Shown: positions 25,099 to 33,489 of the stretch, one piece after another | Layout: each line of letters begins with the position of its first letter | How positions within the stretch are numbered: the stretch's first letter is position 1 | DNA from: Acidobacteriota bacterium | Lineage (GTDB): Bacteria > Actinomycetota > Acidimicrobiia > ATN3 | DNA length: 38,052 nucleotides | Direction: 5' to 3' | Assembly (NCBI GenBank): GCA_003577105.1 | Contig: QEUQ01000018.1 | Coordinates: forward strand, 1-38,052 | Notes under the pieces: generated by a model | What the model was told of the DNA's origin: nothing | Database searches by the model: none | The model's input: the letters and a program-made list of their open reading frames with translations, nothing else | Translations under genes and position numbers: made by a program

Positions 25099-25623
25099 AT
25101 GTACGAGTTTCGAGAGCTAACAGAGAACAAAGTCATCAGAGGGATCGGCATTGCGCTGATCTGCATCGTCCTGGGACTTGGCACGTATCTGCTGATGTAT
25201 CAGCCCGACTCGAATATCGCCGTTCAGGTTGGCAACCAATCGACTCGGACCGCACCCGAGCCGGCCGTCACACCCCCGCAGTCGGCCCCGCTGGAGATTT
25301 CGGCCAACGTGATGCCAACCTCTACGCCGACGATTCCTCCGGAGCCAGGGATTCCGCCGCGCTCGAGCTTCACGCTCAAAGTTCAAAATGCCGGCGGCTC
25401 AGCTGAGTCGGTGCAGTCGACTTTGGAGGAGGCTGTGGCCCTTGGGTACCAGGCGCAGATGGCAGATGTGCCAGGCAAGGCCCTCACCAAGACGGTCATT
25501 CGCCACAAGCCCGGCCTCGACGCGGCGGCTCTAAGGGCCGCAGCAGATCTGGCGCCCGGCGCGCTGCTCGAAGCCCACGCTGACATATCAGTCGATCTTG
25601 TTGTGGCGGTCGGGAAGAGCTGA
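25099..25623 (+). CDS. Membrane-anchored LytR_C-domain protein
   Basis: The 174-residue protein has a short cytoplasmic N-terminus, one transmembrane helix near 15-34, a long Pro/Thr-rich linker of about 60 residues that probably spans the wall, and a C-terminal domain of about 75 residues: V-Q-N-A-G-G-S-A followed by L-x-x-A-x-x-x-G-Y. This matches the LytR_C domain, often found on the ends of LytR-CpsA-Psr wall-polymer ligases but here standing alone on an anchor. Such proteins are common in Actinobacteria and their role is not known. The gene follows tRNA-Thr, and its TGA overlaps a CTG where otsB may begin. ATG at 25099 has a modest AGGG upstream. Confidence 0.75.
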   Translation: MYEFRELTENKVIRGIGIALICIVLGLGTYLLMYQPDSNIAVQVGNQSTRTAPEPAVTPPQSAPLEISANVMPTSTPTIPPEPGIPPRSSFTLKVQNAGGSAESVQSTLEEAVALGYQAQMADVPGKALTKTVIRHKPGLDAAALRAAADLAPGALLEAHADISVDLVVAVGKS

Positions 25624-26450
25624 ATGGATTCGCGCTGAGCGCCGAGGGCAATGACGCCGAGATCATCCGCCGGGGCGTTGAGTTCGTCGGTCGCAATCCC
25701 TCAGGCTGCGCGGTCCTCCTCGACTTCGACGGCACCCTGGCGCACGTGGTGGATCACCCTGATGACGCCGCGGCACTTCCCGAGTCGGTTGAGGCGATTG
25801 TCCGTCTGATTCCGTTGGTTGGCAGGGTCGCTTTGGTCTCGGGGAGACCTGTGGCCGACCTCAGGAGCCGCATCGAGGTCGATGGGTTGCTCTATTCGGG
25901 ACTCTACGGCCTCGAACACGCCATCGGCGCCGGTGAGATCGGCGTCGATCCAAAGGCGGCCGCGTGGATACCAGAGGTAGCTATGGTCACCGAGGCCGCT
26001 ATCGAATGGGCGGCTTCAGCTGACGCCGAACTCGATGGAATTGTGATCGAGGGCAAGGGCCTCTCGGTGACACTCCACTACCGCATGACCGCTGACCATG
26101 CCTTGGCCCACGAGGTGGTGGCTGACTGGGCAAGAGGAGAAGCCGCGCGCACTGGGATGCGCGTCATCTTCGGCAAACTCAACGTCGAGCTCGTGCCCCC
26201 GATCGATTCCGACAAGGGCTCGGCGGCTGACGAGCTCATAGCCGGCATGGACTCCTGCCTTTACATCGGCGACGACTGCGGCGATCTGCCGGCATTTGAC
26301 GCGATTCGCCGTTGGGGAAGGGATTCCCTCGTGCTAGCGGTACAGAGCAGTGAACTCCCAGCCGACGTTGGCGAGAAGGCCGATGCGATAATTGGCGGAC
26401 CCCAAGGAGTAGCGCGGCTGTTGGGCCAGGTCGCCGAGTCACTCGACTAG
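25620..26450 (+). CDS. otsB: Trehalose-6-phosphate phosphatase
   Basis: OtsB is a HAD-fold phosphatase that removes phosphate from trehalose-6-phosphate made by OtsA. Motif I L-D-F-D-G-T is at 34-39, S-G-R motif II near 78, a Lys in D-S-D-K-G near 200, and motif IV I-G-D-D-C-G-D near 218. The first standard start codon in frame is GTG at 25746, which would leave the nucleophile Asp out, so the true start must be earlier. The frame is open from 25584 but holds no ATG, GTG or TTG there. I place the start at CTG 25620, which overlaps the previous stop; CTG 25635 is the other choice. A well-placed ATG at 25624 is in the wrong frame, so a missing base is also possible. Confidence 0.85.
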   Translation: MNGFALSAEGNDAEIIRRGVEFVGRNPSGCAVLLDFDGTLAHVVDHPDDAAALPESVEAIVRLIPLVGRVALVSGRPVADLRSRIEVDGLLYSGLYGLEHAIGAGEIGVDPKAAAWIPEVAMVTEAAIEWAASADAELDGIVIEGKGLSVTLHYRMTADHALAHEVVADWARGEAARTGMRVIFGKLNVELVPPIDSDKGSAADELIAGMDSCLYIGDDCGDLPAFDAIRRWGRDSLVLAVQSSELPADVGEKADAIIGGPQGVARLLGQVAESLD

Positions 26451-26465
26451 CAATATAGGAGCCCC

Positions 26466-28040
26466 ATGACCCTCGAAGGCCCGCCCGCCCCGCGCCCCGT
26501 AGCTCCCCAGAATCTCCTCGAAGCCGGACTGAGATCGCGCCCCGACGAAGTGGCAATCACTTCACTTTCGCGCTCGCTCACGTGGCGCGAGCTCGATGAA
26601 GCGAGCAACACGCTCGCCCTCAACTACCGCGCTCTCGGTCTCGAGCGCGGCGACAGAATCGCTTCTCTTTTGCCGAACAGGGTCGAGCTGGCAATTCACT
26701 ACATAGCTTGCTTCAAGTCCGGGATCGTTGCGACCCCATTCAACTACCGCTATGCAGCCGCTGAGATCGACCATGCACTTGAGGTAGGCGGGGCGAAGAT
26801 GCTCGTTGCTCACTCCGAAAGGGATGGGGACATCGCGGCCTCCCGGCTGGCGTCCGGGCTAGAACTCGGGCACATTCGATTTGGCGACGCGTCACTTGGT
26901 GAGCGAGACCTCGAGACTCTGATTGGGGAACCCATCGGTGGTGGGCCAAGCGACGAGGTCAATCGTGATTCGCTCGACCCTGCGGCACCGGCTGCGATCT
27001 TCTTCACGTCAGGGAGCACCGGACCCGCAAAGGGAGTCACACATTCGCTTGAGACACTCGGGTGGGCATTGGCTATTGCGGGGGCGGCTTTCGAGCTGAC
27101 TGAAGACGACGTCTTCTTACCCGCCTCTTCCATGTCCCACATCGGCTCTTTCCTCTGGACTCTCGCAACGCTGAGCGTTGGGGCGCGGGCGGTCGTCGCA
27201 CACACCGTTGACTCACACGAAGTCTTCGCGTTGCTGAAACAAGAGCGCCCAACTGTGCTCGCCATGATCCCGGCTGCACTTACAGCGCTCATTCGTGACC
27301 ACGACGCGACCTCGGAGGACTTCGAGTCGCTGCGTCTGTGCCGGGCAGGTGCCGACAAGGTTTCGGCCGAGCTTGAATCCGAGTTCAGCCACCTCGTCGG
27401 ATTTCCAATCGATGAAGGATATGGAATGACCGAGGTCGGCCTCGCTTCACTCAATCCACCGAGCGGAGTGATCAAAAATGGCTCAATCGGTTGCGCCGTA
27501 CCCGGCTTTGGGTTCGAACTTCGCGACGACTCTGGCGCCGAGGTTCCTATCGGAGAAGTCGGCCGAGCGTGGTTGCGTAGTCCGAGCGTGACCACCGGGT
27601 ATTGGCAGGATCCCGGAGCGACAGACGAGGTGCTGCGGGACGGCTGGCTCGACTCGGGCGACCTGATGCGGGCTGACGAAGATGGCTACCTTTGGTTCTT
27701 CGGAAGGAAGAAGCAAATCATTGTCCACGACGGGTCGAACATCAGTCCGCTTGAAGTCGAAGGTGCGCTCCTGGAGCACCCGGCCGTGGCCGCCTGCGGC
27801 GTGGTGGGAATACACGACTCTGTCCACGGCGAAAACGTGCGAGCTTACATATCACTTCGGGCGGAGGTTGACGCGCCAACAAGTCCCGAGCTGATCGCCT
27901 TCGCCAGAGAGCGGGTGACCTACAAGGCCCCAGAGGAGATCGTCTTCCTCGATGAGATGCCGCTAAATCCCACGGGAAAGGTCGACCGCGTCGGACTCAA
28001 GAAGCTGGCCGAGGAGCACCTCAACCCGCACGATGCTTAG
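26466..28040 (+). CDS. AMP-forming acyl-CoA synthetase/ligase
   Basis: The 524-residue protein belongs to the ANL superfamily, which activates a carboxylic acid as an acyl-adenylate and then forms a thioester. It shows the P-loop F-F-T-S-G-S-T-G-P-A-K-G near 179, the Y-G-M-T-E adenine-binding motif near 319, G-W-L-D-S-G-D near 394, the hinge G-R-K-K-Q-I-I near 415, and the catalytic lysine in N-P-T-G-K-V-D-R near the C-terminus. Length and motifs are normal for a fatty or aryl acid CoA ligase; the acid is unknown. The ATG at 26466 follows TAGGAG. It is downstream of otsB by 15 bases and may share its transcript. Its stop is followed 25 bases later by the truncated otsA copy. Confidence 0.9.
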   Translation: MTLEGPPAPRPVAPQNLLEAGLRSRPDEVAITSLSRSLTWRELDEASNTLALNYRALGLERGDRIASLLPNRVELAIHYIACFKSGIVATPFNYRYAAAEIDHALEVGGAKMLVAHSERDGDIAASRLASGLELGHIRFGDASLGERDLETLIGEPIGGGPSDEVNRDSLDPAAPAAIFFTSGSTGPAKGVTHSLETLGWALAIAGAAFELTEDDVFLPASSMSHIGSFLWTLATLSVGARAVVAHTVDSHEVFALLKQERPTVLAMIPAALTALIRDHDATSEDFESLRLCRAGADKVSAELESEFSHLVGFPIDEGYGMTEVGLASLNPPSGVIKNGSIGCAVPGFGFELRDDSGAEVPIGEVGRAWLRSPSVTTGYWQDPGATDEVLRDGWLDSGDLMRADEDGYLWFFGRKKQIIVHDGSNISPLEVEGALLEHPAVAACGVVGIHDSVHGENVRAYISLRAEVDAPTSPELIAFARERVTYKAPEEIVFLDEMPLNPTGKVDRVGLKKLAEEHLNPHDA

Positions 28041-28053
28041 GTCCGGTGTGCTT

Positions 28054-28383
28054 TCGGCCCGAGCTCTAGCCGAAGGCTGCCAGCTGGGCCTCGAGCCACG
28101 CCCTCGGGGAATGCGCACTGGCAAGTTCCCGCAGCGATTGCGCCCGCTCGCGTCGCTCATCCCCGGCCATCGAGAGAGCGCGCGCGATAGCGGCCGCAGT
28201 CTCGCTCACATCAAAGGGATTCACCATGAGTGCAGCGTCGCCGAGGACGTCTGCTGCTCCCGCTTGAGCGGAGATCACCAGAGCGCCATAGCGTTCGTTG
28301 GCGATTGGGCCCTCACGGGCCACGAGGTTCATGACGTCGGCAATTGAGTTGACCAGCAAGACGTCATAGCGGCGCAGTGCGGC
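28054..28383. repeat. Direct repeat of the otsA 3' end, left copy
   Basis: This stretch matches 30707-31036 base for base over about 330 bases, with roughly 17 mismatches by my count and no gaps (about 95% identity). It covers the last 106 codons of otsA and 12 bases after the stop. The repeats lie in the same orientation and bracket 2.3 kb. Confidence 0.85.
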
Positions 28384-28410
28384 CTCATGGCGACGAGACG
28401 GGCTCCGCAA
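28066..28410 (-). pseudogene. Truncated otsA copy (C-terminal third)
   Basis: This is the last third of a trehalose-6-phosphate synthase, reading A-L-R-R-Y-D-V-L-L-V-N-S-I-A-D and ending W-L-E-A-Q-L-A-A-F-G. It lacks the N-terminal Rossmann domain and cannot be an active glycosyltransferase. The conserved D-G-M-N-L-V of the donor site has become D-V-M-N-L-V, a change that supports decay. The upstream ten codons, from a TTG at 28410, are not otsA sequence. It lies directly behind the stop of the membrane protein gene of the cassette. Whether any peptide is made is unknown. The intact gene is at 30719-32152. Confidence 0.85.
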
Positions 28411-29002
28411 TCCTGCATCGCGGCGGTTTGCAGTCGATCGGCGGGGACGACAAGGAAGCAGGTACAGCCCAGAAGAGAACCATTATCAAGGCGAACGCGA
28501 GTAGCGTCTGAACGACGACAGAAACGCCCACAAACGGCCAACGTAGCCATGCGCTGTTGAATGCGGGTATCGGCTTTGGTCGTAGCATTCGTATGGCGAC
28601 ACCACAGGTGACGACGACTACTCCTGCAAGGGCGATGTAGATCCCGATTGCGTACCTGACGGTCGGTTCGTCGAAACCTGAGCCCATTGACAATGCTCGG
28701 GTGAAAGCCAGGCCCATGATCAGAGCGGCGTAGCCAACCGGCAGGAGCCACCACCTACTTGCCACCCTCGGCTCTCCAAATCTCTTCAACGCTCTCAGCC
28801 AAACTCCGGCCAGCAACGAAGCCATTGCCACGAGCGCTAGGAAGATCAGTGCCAACCTGCCGATGACGCCACCCGCAGCGAACGTGGCTGGACGCGGGGC
28901 CCCATTCTCCGAGTACCACGGAAGCAGAGCCGCGGCCTGGAATATGAAGAACCCGATCCACACGAGGGCGTCGCCAATCGTGATTCGCGTTGTACGTCTC
29001 AC
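28385..29002 (-). CDS. Five-helix membrane protein of the cassette
   Basis: I do not recognise a family. The 205-residue product has five predicted transmembrane helices near residues 9-32, 47-70, 85-106, 119-142 and 156-180, with short loops and a hydrophilic C-terminus that contains two cysteines (D-C-K-P-P-R-C). The GTG at 29002 overlaps the TGA of the previous gene, so it is translated together with the Pro-rich exported protein. The stop codon abuts the duplicated otsA segment. By position it could anchor or handle the two exported proteins of the same cassette; this is inference from gene order. Confidence 0.65.
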   Translation of the reverse strand: MRRTTRITIGDALVWIGFFIFQAAALLPWYSENGAPRPATFAAGGVIGRLALIFLALVAMASLLAGVWLRALKRFGEPRVASRWWLLPVGYAALIMGLAFTRALSMGSGFDEPTVRYAIGIYIALAGVVVVTCGVAIRMLRPKPIPAFNSAWLRWPFVGVSVVVQTLLAFALIMVLFWAVPASLSSPPIDCKPPRCRIAEPVSSP

Positions 29003-29637
29003 GCGGGAACCGGTGGCTCGGTCGGTGGCGCCGGTGAAGTTGTCGGCGGTGGCGGCTCGGTCGGTGGCGGCGGTGATTCCCCAGGGCTCATGCCGCCCTC
29101 GTAGCTGAGCTCCCAGTTCGTCCCTGCCGGGCCCCATGGGAGTTCGCCGCCCAGGAGCCCACACAGATTGCCCTTCAGGTCGAAACCAACCGCCGCGATG
29201 TAGGCCTCGCCGGTCCAAATCGTGTATGTCGGTCGAGGAGGAACAGAGCTGTGGAAGTGGCCGATTGCATACGCCTCGCGCAGAGTGCCCTGCTCGTAAG
29301 TACCAACCTGACAATGTTGTGTCCACACCGCTGGAATGTCGGTCCAGCAAAACCCCAAAACGTCGTGGAGTGGCGACATCGTGGACGTCGTTTGGGTGAA
29401 GTGAGCCGACACTTGCAGGTTGTTTACGGAAATCCCGACGTACTCTTTGACGCTTGCCTTTGCCCATAGCTCATGATCGTGGGGTGGTCCTCTGTGGGCG
29501 TATCCGGGAATCCCCATGACCCAAATCAAGACCGTCGCGAGAACGACGGTTGTTGCGGCATTAGATCCTCGATGCGCAAGAAGCGAGCGCGTGGAGTGCC
29601 AGCGCGCTCGTACCGAGGCATCAGTGTCCCTTTCCAT
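28999..29637 (-). CDS. Exported protein with Pro-rich C-terminus
   Basis: I do not recognise a family. The 212-residue product has a basic N-terminus and a signal-peptide-like helix (V-V-L-A-T-V-L-I-W-V-M-G) with a likely cleavage after G-Y-A near residue 47. The mature part has about 125 residues with three cysteines and histidine-rich spots (A-H-R-G-P-P-H-D-H-E, I-G-H-F-H-S). The last 27 residues are an almost pure Pro/Thr/Glu tail, a common wall-spanning or linker feature. It lacks a sorting motif or a membrane helix at the end. Its start overlaps the previous gene by 17 bases and its end overlaps the next, so the three genes form one unit. No ribosome site is clear before the ATG at 29637. 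Confidence 0.6.
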   Translation of the reverse strand: MERDTDASVRARWHSTRSLLAHRGSNAATTVVLATVLIWVMGIPGYAHRGPPHDHELWAKASVKEYVGISVNNLQVSAHFTQTTSTMSPLHDVLGFCWTDIPAVWTQHCQVGTYEQGTLREAYAIGHFHSSVPPRPTYTIWTGEAYIAAVGFDLKGNLCGLLGGELPWGPAGTNWELSYEGGMSPGESPPPPTEPPPPTTSPAPPTEPPVPA

Positions 29638-30328
29638 GTTCGCCGTGGCGGTCTCGGCACAGTGGGCGCGTCGACCGACTCGATTGCCCGGCGGGACTTG
29701 ACGGTTCTATGAAGATTGACCCGTCATGTTTGTGACTGTGACCGCCATCGTGCGCGCGCATATGTCGCTGGTGGTCGGTCAGGTGGAAGCAAGTGGATTG
29801 ACCTGTAGGGATTTGGCTCGCCACCGTCGGTGAAATATCGGGTCCAGGGTCCGCGGGCGATTCCGGCGGCTTTCCGCTGTGAGAAATCGATGCCACCACC
29901 AGGCTGCACTCGTCTGAGAGCTGAAGCCGCACTTTGGTGTCTCCGCTACCGCTGTCGAAAGTGAGCACTCCGACCGGGCGGTTGAACACACAGGTTCCGG
30001 AGCTAGGGTTCCACTCGCCGACAGCGACAACGTCGCCTTGTTCCACGGGGAATCGACGGTTCCCGTCGAACCCGATGCTGAAGGCCCTTCGAGATGGCTG
30101 AGACCTGGTCGGGTGATCGTCTCGTCTGACCTCGCTATCACGGCTTCGTGCGGCAGATTCGTCGCGACCGCGCGCAGTGGCAATGTCGGGCGCAATCACG
30201 AACACACTGACCAACAGCGTCAGGACTACCGCGGCCCCGGGCTTCGATCTGATTGCCGCGTGCCGACGCGTCGGGCTGGCTTGGCTGGGCAGAGGAGGCC
30301 TGACTGATCTGTTCGGCAACTGAACCAC
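29621..30328 (-). CDS. Exported protein, first gene of the cassette
   Basis: I do not recognise a family. The 235-residue product has a basic N-terminus, a hydrophobic stretch near 33-47 and an A-T-A cleavage-like site near 52, so it is probably exported. The mature region includes a beta-rich part (V-E-Q-G-D-V-V-A-V-G-E-W) with two cysteines, and a C-terminal part rich in His and Arg (H-L-T-D-H-Q-R-H-M-R-A-H-D-G-G-H-S-H-K-H), which could bind metal. The GTG at 30328 lies 34 bases after the likely transcription start and has no visible ribosome site. Its promoter carries an inverted repeat in the spacer. The function is unknown. Confidence 0.55.
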   Translation of the reverse strand: MVQLPNRSVRPPLPSQASPTRRHAAIRSKPGAAVVLTLLVSVFVIAPDIATARGRDESAARSRDSEVRRDDHPTRSQPSRRAFSIGFDGNRRFPVEQGDVVAVGEWNPSSGTCVFNRPVGVLTFDSGSGDTKVRLQLSDECSLVVASISHSGKPPESPADPGPDISPTVASQIPTGQSTCFHLTDHQRHMRAHDGGHSHKHDGSIFIEPSSPAGQSSRSTRPLCRDRHGEHGKGH

Positions 30329-30706
30329 CGGGACGTGCGAATGATGGGGTTAGTGCCGCTACGTCAAAATGCTAAGTGCGGGTGACGCACTCGTCAACTC
30401 GCCGAGTTGCCGGGACCAGCGTCGGTTTCCTGACAGCCCCCGTGATCGCGTCGACTGTTTTCAAGAACTCGGCCATGCGTGCCTTTCCCGTCGCACGCGG
30501 GCCTGACTTCGGCAAGCCTCATGCGGGCTAGGCCAGTCAGCAGCGACTGCTATCCAGTCGCACGGGACCACATCAATGATTACGTCAAGCTTCACAGACA
30601 CTTTGAAAAAAACACGCTGAACCCGCCTTCCGCATCCGGGCTTGGCCGCTTTGCGTTCCGGGCAGCGATCCACTGACGGCGCTCGCTAGCTAGTTGCAGC
30701 GTCCCA
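30329..30706. other. Intergenic stretch of the cassette
   Basis: These 378 bases hold the cassette promoter on the minus strand (30369-30397). From about 30400 to 30706 I see no credible gene, only short frames on both strands without ribosome sites. The composition looks less GC-rich than the neighbouring otsA, and it contains a run of seven A near 30606. The right copy of the otsA repeat starts at 30707. Confidence 0.5.
30369..30397 (-). promoter_or_regulatory. Cassette promoter with palindromic spacer
   Basis: On the minus strand, -35 TTGACG (30392-30397) and -10 TAGCAT (30369-30374) are exactly 17 bases apart. The whole spacer is the inverted repeat AGTGCG-N5-CGCACT (30375-30391). A protein bound there would cover RNA polymerase contacts, so this looks like an operator-controlled promoter. 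Transcription would start near 30362. Confidence 0.65.
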
Positions 30707-31036
30707 TCGGCCCGAGCCCTAGCCGAGGGCTGCCAGCTGAGCCTCGAGCCACGCCCTCGGGGGATGCGCACCGGCAAGTTCCCGCAGCGATTTCGCCCGC
30801 TCGCGTCGCTCATCCCCGGCCATCGAGAGCGCGCGCGCGATAGCGGCCGCAGTCTCGCTCACATCAAAGGGATTCACCACGAGTGCAGCGTCACCGAGGA
30901 CGTCTGCTGCTCCCGCTTGAGCGGAGATCACCAGCGAGCCATCGCGCTCGTTGGCGATTGGGCCCTCACGGGCTACGAGGTTCATGCCGTCGGCAATTGA
31001 GTTGACCAGCAAGACGTCATAGCGGCGCAGCGCCGC
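30707..31036. repeat. Direct repeat of the otsA 3' end, right copy
   Basis: This is the partner of 28054-28383 at a constant offset of 2653 bases and lies inside the intact otsA plus 12 bases after its stop. Similarity stops sharply after 31036. Confidence 0.85.
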
Positions 31037-32152
31037 AAGTGAGCGAGGATATGAGTCGGCCACATCAACGGTAATCGGCTCCCAGGTCGGCAAGCGCCAA
31101 CGGGAGTTGACTGCCTCGGCGGTCAGCCGGCATTCGGCCTCATATGCCTGGTACTCGACCAGCCGCTCCCTTGACGGGTGAAGGAGCGCGAGGTGTCGCA
31201 GGCGTCCACGCAGCTCCGGTGCCGCTCCGAGAAGCTCGTCAATTGCCCAGAAGCCTCTGACAATGTTCTTCGCGGGTTCCATGCGATCCACCCTGAGGAC
31301 AAGGAGGTCCTCCGCCCCAACAATCTCTTCGAGCCGTTTGCCGGCCTCGAAAACTGCGGAGGATTTCAGTTCTGATTTCAAAGTCTCTGGGTCAGGGCCA
31401 AGCGGGAAGACCGCAAGGTTGGAGTGGGCTGATGAGCCAGGAGCTTCTACGCTGCTCCCATATGCCGCACGCGCTTCGTCGAAGCGATCTGCCCACCGCT
31501 GGCTGTGAAATCCGACAAGATCGCACGCACCCGCAAGGCCGAGGATCTCCTTACACCACTCAGCGGGAAGCCTCGAAAGCGATTCAACTGATGGAAACGG
31601 CGTGTGAAGGAAGAACCCGATTTTCGCTTGAGGTATCAGGTTCCTCAGCATCGCGGGGGCCAGATACAGGTGGAAGTCTTGGACCAAGACAGTCGCGTCC
31701 GACGTTCCTACCTCGGCTGCCACCGCTTCAGCCACTTGCTCGTTGTAGGTGCGGTAAGCAGACCACGCTGCATGTGCCCGTGCATCAATCCGCGGTCTGT
31801 GGGCTGCATCGAAGAGACCGTGAGCCGCGAACCACAAGAGGCCGTTGGAGATGAAGTCGTACGCGCTTCGGAAGGTCGACTCGTCGATATTGAGATACCT
31901 GAGGTTGTACCTTCCGCCATCGATCTCTGCGGTCTGGGAAACCTCTGAATTTGCGGCGAATTCGCGGTCTGCCTCACTCATGGCCACTGCTATCCATGTG
32001 CCGGCTCCGCTCTCCATCGCCGGCCGCAGCGCCGATACCAATCCGCCACTGCCGCGCTTTGCCCCGCCACCCTCTAAGAACGTGACCGGCCCTCGGTTCG
32101 AGGCGACGACGATCTTGCCTGAGCCCAAAGATTGCAGAGGCTTTGCAGTCAT
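30719..32152 (-). CDS. otsA: Trehalose-6-phosphate synthase (GT20)
   Basis: OtsA joins glucose-6-phosphate and an NDP-glucose to trehalose-6-phosphate. The 477-residue product has the GT20 marks: V-A-S-N-R-G-P-V near 17-24, G-S-G-G-L-V-S-A-L near 34, Q-D-F-H-L-Y near 158 with the H-T-P-F-P-S acceptor-site segment near 182, R-V-D-R-M-E-P-A-K-N-I near 287, and D-G-M-N-L-V-A-R-E-G near 391. The R-V-D-R-x-x-x-x-K-N-I form is the actinobacterial variant of the usual V-D-R-L-D-Y-x-K-G. The ATG lies only two bases after the treT stop, so both share one transcript from 33489. The last third is duplicated at 28054. Confidence 0.92.
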   Translation of the reverse strand: MTAKPLQSLGSGKIVVASNRGPVTFLEGGGAKRGSGGLVSALRPAMESGAGTWIAVAMSEADREFAANSEVSQTAEIDGGRYNLRYLNIDESTFRSAYDFISNGLLWFAAHGLFDAAHRPRIDARAHAAWSAYRTYNEQVAEAVAAEVGTSDATVLVQDFHLYLAPAMLRNLIPQAKIGFFLHTPFPSVESLSRLPAEWCKEILGLAGACDLVGFHSQRWADRFDEARAAYGSSVEAPGSSAHSNLAVFPLGPDPETLKSELKSSAVFEAGKRLEEIVGAEDLLVLRVDRMEPAKNIVRGFWAIDELLGAAPELRGRLRHLALLHPSRERLVEYQAYEAECRLTAEAVNSRWRLPTWEPITVDVADSYPRSLAALRRYDVLLVNSIADGMNLVAREGPIANERDGSLVISAQAGAADVLGDAALVVNPFDVSETAAAIARALSMAGDERRERAKSLRELAGAHPPRAWLEAQLAALG

Positions 32153-32154
32153 CG

Positions 32155-33489
32155 TCAGGCTTGCCGGTTGAGGCTCACAAAGAGTTCGAGGTAGTTCCTG
32201 AGGTTGTTCGTCGAGAGGTAGTTCTTTCGGATGTGTTCCTTGCCGTGCTTGCCCATCCTGGTAGCTTCTTCCGGGTTCTTGAGCAGATCAACTAGGCGGG
32301 CCGCACATTCTTCTACTGAGTCAACCAAGAACCCGGTCTCACCCTCGACGATCTGAAGGCGGATTCCGCCTGCACGCCCGCCAATCACCGGGGTCTCCTT
32401 CCACAGCGCCTCTGCAACCGTGAGCGCGAAGCCCTCGCGAATCGACTTTTGAAGTACGACATCGGATGCGCGTTGAAACGCGTTGACTTGTGTTGCCCCG
32501 ACTTGCTGCATGTTTGTAAGCAGATAGATGTCGGGGTCGCCTTCGCGGTGCTCATCGGTGGCAGTGAAGTAGTGCCACCCCTCGGGGTCATCGGTGGCCA
32601 TGGACCCCGCCATTATCAGTTGGAGGCCTGGGATCTCCTCTTTGGCGAGGCGGTAGGCATCGATCACGCCGAGCGGATCTTTCCACGGGTCGAACCTGCT
32701 TATCTGGCACGCAATGGGGCGTTCGACGTCGATTTGGTAAGCCTGAAGCATTGCTGTGACCGTGCGGCGGTCCATCCAAAGGTTCTTGTGGGCAAGCGGA
32801 TCAATACATGGTGGGATGATCGCCACCTGTGGCTCGAATCCCTGGGGCACATAGTCGTCAAGGGTGAAGACGCCTGCGTCGTATTCGTTGATGAAGGGCT
32901 TGAAGAAGTTGCTGACCGGCTCATGCGGCGCAGTCGTATCAATGTGACATCGCCATATCCACTTGCCGGGAGGGTGTTCGCCTCGCACCTCAGTGAGCAA
33001 GTGGAGCATCGCTGCAGTCTGGGGGTCATGGCAGACAATGAAATCGTAGGAGTCGCTCCAAGACTCGATGTTCTCGCGTAGCTTGGCGAGATAAATCGAT
33101 TCCATCTCGGCAGTCCAGAGGACCTCCATGCCCTGGAGGCCGTTATGCGCGGCTTTCGTGACGTTGAAGAACTCCTCTGACCCGTGGATCAGCCGCCATT
33201 CGGCTTCGAGACCTACCGATCGCATCAGGGGTACCAGCGCATATAGAAGTTCGGCGACGCCGCCCCCGAACGCGGTCGGGTTCAGGTGAAGAACCCTGGC
33301 TCCTTCGATCTGTGAAGCCAGCTCGGCGATTTCCTCGACGACATCGTTGCCCACGATTTCCGCATAGGGTTCTATTGGCTTTTCGGGCAGGGGAACCAGA
33401 TCCAGAGCGGGCGCCGCCCTAAGTGAACGTGGGCTCTTGCTCTCCGATTCGCCAGATGTTGATGCGGTCGCGCTCGAGGGCTCGGTCAC
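32155..33489 (-). CDS. treT: Trehalose synthase TreT-type GT4 glycosyltransferase
   Basis: TreT makes trehalose in one step from NDP-glucose and glucose, and can run in reverse. The 444-residue GT-B protein has the hallmark N-P-T-A-F-G-G-G-V-A-E-L-L near 72, W-R-C-H-I-D near 182, S-R-F-D-P-W-K-D-P near 270 in the donor domain, S-I-R-E-G-F-A-L-T-V-A-E-A near 352 with the nucleotide-sugar glutamates, and G-G-R-A-G-G-I near 377. These fit the trehalose glycosyltransferring synthase of Thermococcus, Pyrobaculum and Rubrobacter type. The first 30 residues are a Ser-rich extension. The GTG at 33489 has GGAGA about ten bases before it. It precedes otsA and diverges from the glycerate kinase gene. 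Confidence 0.85.
   Translation of the reverse strand: MTEPSSATASTSGESESKSPRSLRAAPALDLVPLPEKPIEPYAEIVGNDVVEEIAELASQIEGARVLHLNPTAFGGGVAELLYALVPLMRSVGLEAEWRLIHGSEEFFNVTKAAHNGLQGMEVLWTAEMESIYLAKLRENIESWSDSYDFIVCHDPQTAAMLHLLTEVRGEHPPGKWIWRCHIDTTAPHEPVSNFFKPFINEYDAGVFTLDDYVPQGFEPQVAIIPPCIDPLAHKNLWMDRRTVTAMLQAYQIDVERPIACQISRFDPWKDPLGVIDAYRLAKEEIPGLQLIMAGSMATDDPEGWHYFTATDEHREGDPDIYLLTNMQQVGATQVNAFQRASDVVLQKSIREGFALTVAEALWKETPVIGGRAGGIRLQIVEGETGFLVDSVEECAARLVDLLKNPEEATRMGKHGKEHIRKNYLSTNNLRNYLELFVSLNRQA

Follow-up and report, generated by a model that had tools for sequence, protein, structure and literature searches.

A duplicated otsA 3′ end around a 2.3-kb block of orphan genes: a probable insertion with long target duplication

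The otsA locus and its direct repeat

The window, an entire contig of 38,052 bases in a draft genome (2.87 Mb, 104 contigs, 95% complete), contains an intact otsA gene with a treT-like gene upstream and, beyond its 3′ end, an acyl-CoA/AMP ligase gene and an otsB homologue (Table 1). The best NCBIfam match of otsA is TIGR02400, whose 281 bits lie under that model's cut-off, and the best otsA relatives elsewhere, in a scan of genome contigs, reach only 31–44%; one related MAG is labelled Acidimicrobiia. The D-F-D-G-T-L motif of otsB lies 5′ of the first ATG, GTG or TTG (25620–25746) in a frame that is open upstream, so the otsB start would be either non-standard or mis-sequenced.

By self-comparison we found that 327 nt at the otsA 3′ end, taking in 12 nt past the stop codon, occur twice in direct orientation, ungapped, with 16 mismatches (95.1% identity) and at an offset of exactly 2653. 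With blastn, the same repeat extends to 28383/31036 (330 nt, 94.8%, E = 5e-146). The first-pass annotation had described just such copies (about 330 bases, about 95% identical, gapless, 2653 apart, with 12 bases after the stop) and had assigned the inner one to the intact gene; both points hold, the right copy being the end of the 477-aa otsA. Identity to the right of 28380–28383 is at background level, and at 28381–28387 the outer copy runs into the stop of the first gene in the cassette. To the left of 28054, 15 of 27 positions are identical (P about 0.001, for a single offset and a window length picked post hoc). We considered continued homology into the ligase end and dropped this borderline candidate, setting the repeat edge at 28054, since 15/27 is out of keeping with the repeat's 5% divergence. 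No Rfam element or tRNA gene was found at the insertion point.

The chance that the two copies were brought together by assembly, as a chimera of two metagenome strains, appears very slim. Although the genome is a draft and the junction at 28381 is seen in the assembly alone, there are 16 differences between the copies, and an identical layout occurs at three other loci (see below); the joints also have no long shared k-mer, which argues against a chimera, since assemblers need one for wrong joins.

The outer copy lacks the first ~370 otsA codons, and its D-G-M-N motif reads D-V-M-N, a change at a glycine (G389) that is invariant in an alignment of 18 relatives; the description of this copy as a dead fragment with an altered motif is thus borne out. 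At the conserved sites that differ between the copies (371, 389, and 404), the common residue is always that of otsA and never that of the fragment, and in the same 18 relatives there is no conserved site where the fragment agrees with the relatives and otsA does not.

Table 1. Features of the otsA locus and of the three further repeat loci
Feature	Position	Strand	Basis or remark
otsB homologue (trehalose phosphatase)	25746..26450	+	Pfam PF02358, E 1e-16; true start further upstream
Acyl-CoA/AMP ligase between otsB and fragment	26466..28040	+	Pfam AMP-binding
Outer repeat copy	28054..28380	-	otsA 3′ end + 12 nt, pseudogene fragment; 95.1%, no gaps, G389V at invariant site
Unique cassette between copies	28384..30706		Occurs once in this genome; among the top 4% of matched pieces by tetranucleotide distance
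c1, predicted multi-helix membrane protein, 207 aa	28385..29008 (start inferred)	-	Weak similarity to ferric-reductase-like membrane domain
c2, 212-aa orphan, signal-peptide-like start, proline-rich tail	28999..29637	-	No homologue
c3, 235-aa orphan ORF, signal-peptide-like start	29621..30328	-	No homologue; coding status uncertain
Single promoter-like site 5′ of c3	30369..30397	-	Consensus match only
Inner repeat copy	30707..31033	-	Intact otsA 3′ end + 12 nt after stop
Intact otsA (trehalose-6-phosphate synthase, GT20, 477 aa)	30719..32152	-	Pfam PF00982, E 2.8e-84
treT-like trehalose synthase	32155..33489	-	Pfam TreT_GT1; synteny: conserved upstream neighbour of otsA
Acyl-CoA dehydrogenase repeat	C78:24356-24597 and 27489-27730 (L119 4356-4597, 7489-7730)		242 nt, 96.3%, 3133 apart
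Methyltransferase 5′ end repeat	C32:28292-28494 and 29188-29390 (L137)		203 nt, 89%, 896 apart
Repeat around most of Gp49-type toxin + HTH_3 antitoxin pair	C32:76457-76561 and 77403-77507 (L139)		105 nt, 89%, 946 apart

The cassette between the copies

Three overlapping ORFs lie on one strand between the copies, in the transcription order c3, c2, c1, which agrees with the three unrelated genes claimed earlier for this interval except that the coding status of c3 is uncertain: its codon score falls in the lowest 1% of long ORFs and is no better than that of a shadow ORF. The coding signal of c1 and c2 is modest. The signal-peptide-like stretches of c2 and c3 were judged by eye. The c1 product has a weak match (28% over 130 aa) to a PF01794 protein, a ferric-reductase-like membrane protein of one class genome; its single-sequence structure model is helical and of low confidence (mean pLDDT 58.6), and the model of c2 is poor (mean pLDDT 36.7).

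None of the cassette proteins matches a family in Pfam, NCBIfam, or PADLOC, and c1 also has no match in PHROGs; c2 and c3 have no match among solved structures. Convincing homologues were found neither in plasmids, phages (searched with c3 only), and viral contigs nor in the 60 nearest genomes, ~395 genomes of the class, and ~396 of the phylum (searched with c2 only), each collection having been queried with one or more of the three proteins. The occurrence of both copies and the cassette throughout the class, which the first-pass annotation had named as speaking against an insertion, thus finds no counterpart in those ~395 genomes. A number of apparent matches were dismissed on reading, since they had internal stops, lay in the wrong frame, or involved proline-rich tails (chance or low complexity, for c2).

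The cassette had also been called foreign-looking. Its GC content is normal (z = 0.8), and its tetranucleotide use is mildly atypical, at rank 34 among 833 matched pieces (2 of 106 with a smaller, earlier reference); the composition therefore lends this label weak support, through tetranucleotide use and not through GC. No second cassette copy or remnant was found in the genome, nor any replicon, mobilisation, or phage gene that would mark the cassette as a circle.

Prophage e14 integrates in icd and restores the gene with its own 3′ end. A comparable arrangement would arise if the insert were what is left of an integrase-driven element bearing an otsA 3′ end of its own, with the gene restored upon integration and the displaced 3′ fragment remaining at the far side. 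No recombinase or phage gene was found in the cassette in any frame tested, however, so that the recombinase expected of an integrase element is missing, and the insert spans just 2.3 kb; we regard this origin as highly improbable.

The locus in relatives and the origin of the insert

To place the locus we compared it with one genome of the same order (G001) and others of the same class. Convergent otsA and otsB genes occur in 14 distinct relatives (the two rows of G001 and the re-fetched loci L073 and L074 being counted once). In all but one of these the two stop codons are no more than 70 nt apart, with or without overlap; in the exception the distance is 659 nt. The gap is 20 nt in G001 versus 4268 nt here, and these 4268 nt consist of the ligase gene, the otsA fragment, and the cassette. 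Since 13 of the 14 relatives keep this short tail-to-tail distance and otsA and otsB are 4.27 kb apart here, DNA has been added in this genome; class-level synteny favours the absence of the insert at the relatives' otsA locus.

An uninterrupted ligase–otsA junction in relatives, expected in the first-pass annotation if there had been an insertion, was not seen: No ligase lies at the relatives' locus, and it is instead otsA and otsB that are uninterrupted. The ligase is beside otsA in no relative with a treT–otsA pair, and its closest counterparts among the 20 nearest genomes share 32–35% identity with it, which together indicate a separate, lineage-specific addition at the same junction. If the cassette came in by a single crossover, the ligase was probably there before it, because the fragment left by such a crossover must adjoin the old downstream sequence.

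A purely endogenous history, in which the cassette already lay beside otsA, the otsA end and cassette were duplicated in tandem, and the second cassette was later deleted, dispenses with a foreign donor and accords with the normal GC of the cassette. We nevertheless think it quite unlikely: it requires two events, and the later deletion would have had to end exactly 12 nt past the otsA stop; relatives have no cassette here or elsewhere; and this genome retains no remnant of a second one.

The divergence of the copies, aligned and dated by synonymous changes as the first-pass annotation had proposed, bears on what the donor may have been. They differ by seven synonymous and eight nonsynonymous changes (dS = 0.089, dN = 0.036; codon comparison). 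With assumed omega values of 0.05–0.1, the relatives being too distant for measuring omega, the probability of at least eight nonsynonymous changes out of 15 is only 0.0001–0.007 if both copies were functional until recently. If at least about half of the divergence postdates the event and the fragment was unconstrained, the observed pattern is expected (P = 0.3–0.8). The counts thus fit one copy drifting freely after the event, and much of the divergence probably postdates the duplication. This suggests that the copies were near-identical at birth, which in turn points to a donor strain identical or very closely related to this one.

The explanation we consider moderately probable, and most likely overall, is a 2.3-kb insertion with long target duplication, in which a small or recircularised molecule entered by a single crossover. 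The donor, circular or recircularised and derived from this strain or one very close to it, would have had the cassette linked to an otsA 3′ end and would have recombined with the chromosomal otsA end in a RecA-type crossover, yielding one complete otsA gene, one headless 3′ fragment, and a target duplication of 327 nt. The added segment would be a small operon of putative envelope or secreted-type orphan genes at the otsA 3′ end, and the fragment would then have drifted without constraint. Of the original proposal, single-crossover integration of a circular molecule with an otsA end, the insertion is supported and the anatomy is the expected one; nothing in the cassette identifies a plasmid or phage, and the circular donor is a putative one.

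Circular, linear, and tandem-duplication-plus-deletion routes all end in the same layout, and the junctions expected from the first two could be told apart only with the donor at hand. Published frequencies bear on the choice between these two. When a lacZ end was supplied on a non-replicating plasmid, 56 of 60 clones arose by single crossover of the circular molecule, with partial gene duplications of 109–950 bp, and four by homology-facilitated illegitimate recombination, of which deletion is the usual product (PMC3240628). These proportions make the single crossover the leading route and recombination with a linear donor its main rival.

Such a linear donor, from a related strain and carrying the otsA end followed by the cassette, would undergo homologous recombination in otsA and an illegitimate join within the resident otsA, whose 3′ end would thereby be duplicated. 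We judge this possible but unlikely. The mechanism is documented, would leave an identical final layout, and needs homology at one edge of the insert only; moreover, the genome encodes a ComEC domain, which most control genomes have too, making DNA uptake possible. On the other hand, it usually produces deletions and not duplications, often with microhomology of 3–10 bp, and only about 4 bp (GCGA) are visible near 28390; the substitution pattern, too, suggests copies nearly identical at birth. Capture of foreign DNA by end joining is less likely because a Ku gene (PF02735) has no match in this 95%-complete genome.

If insertion and duplication are of one age (about 0.044 substitutions per copy at each neutral site), the probability that three unselected frames would all stay free of new stops is about 0.07, or about 0.001 (0.066 × 0.013) with an assumed indel rate. 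This suggests that the cassette frames are under selection, provided that the ORFs are genes and that insertion and duplication coincide. Because the reading frames stayed open, we infer that the cassette still matters to its host; with its frames open beside a decayed flanking fragment, the orphan operon is a candidate for a selected function.

Similar scars elsewhere and known systems

Self-comparison of some 2.0 Mb, or 70% of the genome, yielded, beyond ordinary paralogues and tandem repeats, three further sharp-edged, ungapped direct repeats (105–242 nt) around unrelated DNA, chosen by reading the repeat list without a preset rule (Table 1). At the first, a broken acyl-CoA dehydrogenase copy with its first codons retained lies downstream of the intact gene, and the interior contains a periplasmic-binding-protein gene and an orphan ORF. 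At the second, near 28.3 kb of contig C32, the repeat encloses a small HTH-domain gene, and a Gp49/HTH_3 toxin-antitoxin pair adjoins it. At the third, near 76.5 kb of the same contig, the antitoxin 3′ end forms part of the repeat.

Insertion with long target duplication is known from Helicobacter pylori (Nobusato et al. 2000, as referred to in PMC1643837 and PMC3031569). As described there, such insertions likewise have long direct copies of the target on either side of unique genes and need no transposase. They were defined by strains with and without the insert, whereas the otsA case is read from one genome together with class-level synteny, and they carry mostly restriction-modification genes and are reportedly often tied to selfish genes, whereas no restriction genes occur in the otsA cassette. 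The selfish-gene aspect of those accounts has a parallel in the toxin-antitoxin pair at another locus of this genome. Of the traits that characterize such insertions, the otsA locus has the long direct repeats and has no transposase or site-specific recombinase; the restriction-modification cargo, typical but not essential, is lacking. With the long repeat present and the transposase absent, albeit without the typical cargo, the locus is probably a new instance of a known event and not a new system.

The locus also shows the homologous direct repeats on both sides that a Campbell-type integration leaves, and it resembles the lacZ-end experiment in the direct duplication of a gene end (327 bp here, within the range given above) around added DNA, one copy being complete and the other truncated, although that experiment had a known vector as donor (PMC3240628) and the otsA insert has no vector functions. 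A further likeness is to the effector-immunity arrays of T6SS, in which a conserved gene part serves as the anchor for incoming downstream genes and older DNA is left behind (PMC5361080); the orphan modules there are ascribed to homology-facilitated illegitimate recombination. Those arrays, however, consist of effector-immunity modules whose displaced parts differ in sequence, whereas the displaced otsA end is 95% identical.

What is new is the recurrence of such scars at three more loci of the same genome. That all four record one active, transposase-free route, by which small gene blocks (an orphan operon, a toxin-antitoxin pair) are repeatedly inserted in this lineage with target duplications of 100–330 nt, is a decidedly doubtful proposition, the count coming from this genome alone. 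Long target duplications expose insertions from a single genome, needing neither a transposase nor relatives, and at least four scars of differing apparent age offer a test of whether toxin-antitoxin pairs and orphan operons spread by this means outside the organisms in which such insertions were first described.

As a separate observation, the genome contains a multi-copy family of 300–800 nt, 73–90% alike, within and between the short contigs L044, L098, L102, L106, L112, and L130.
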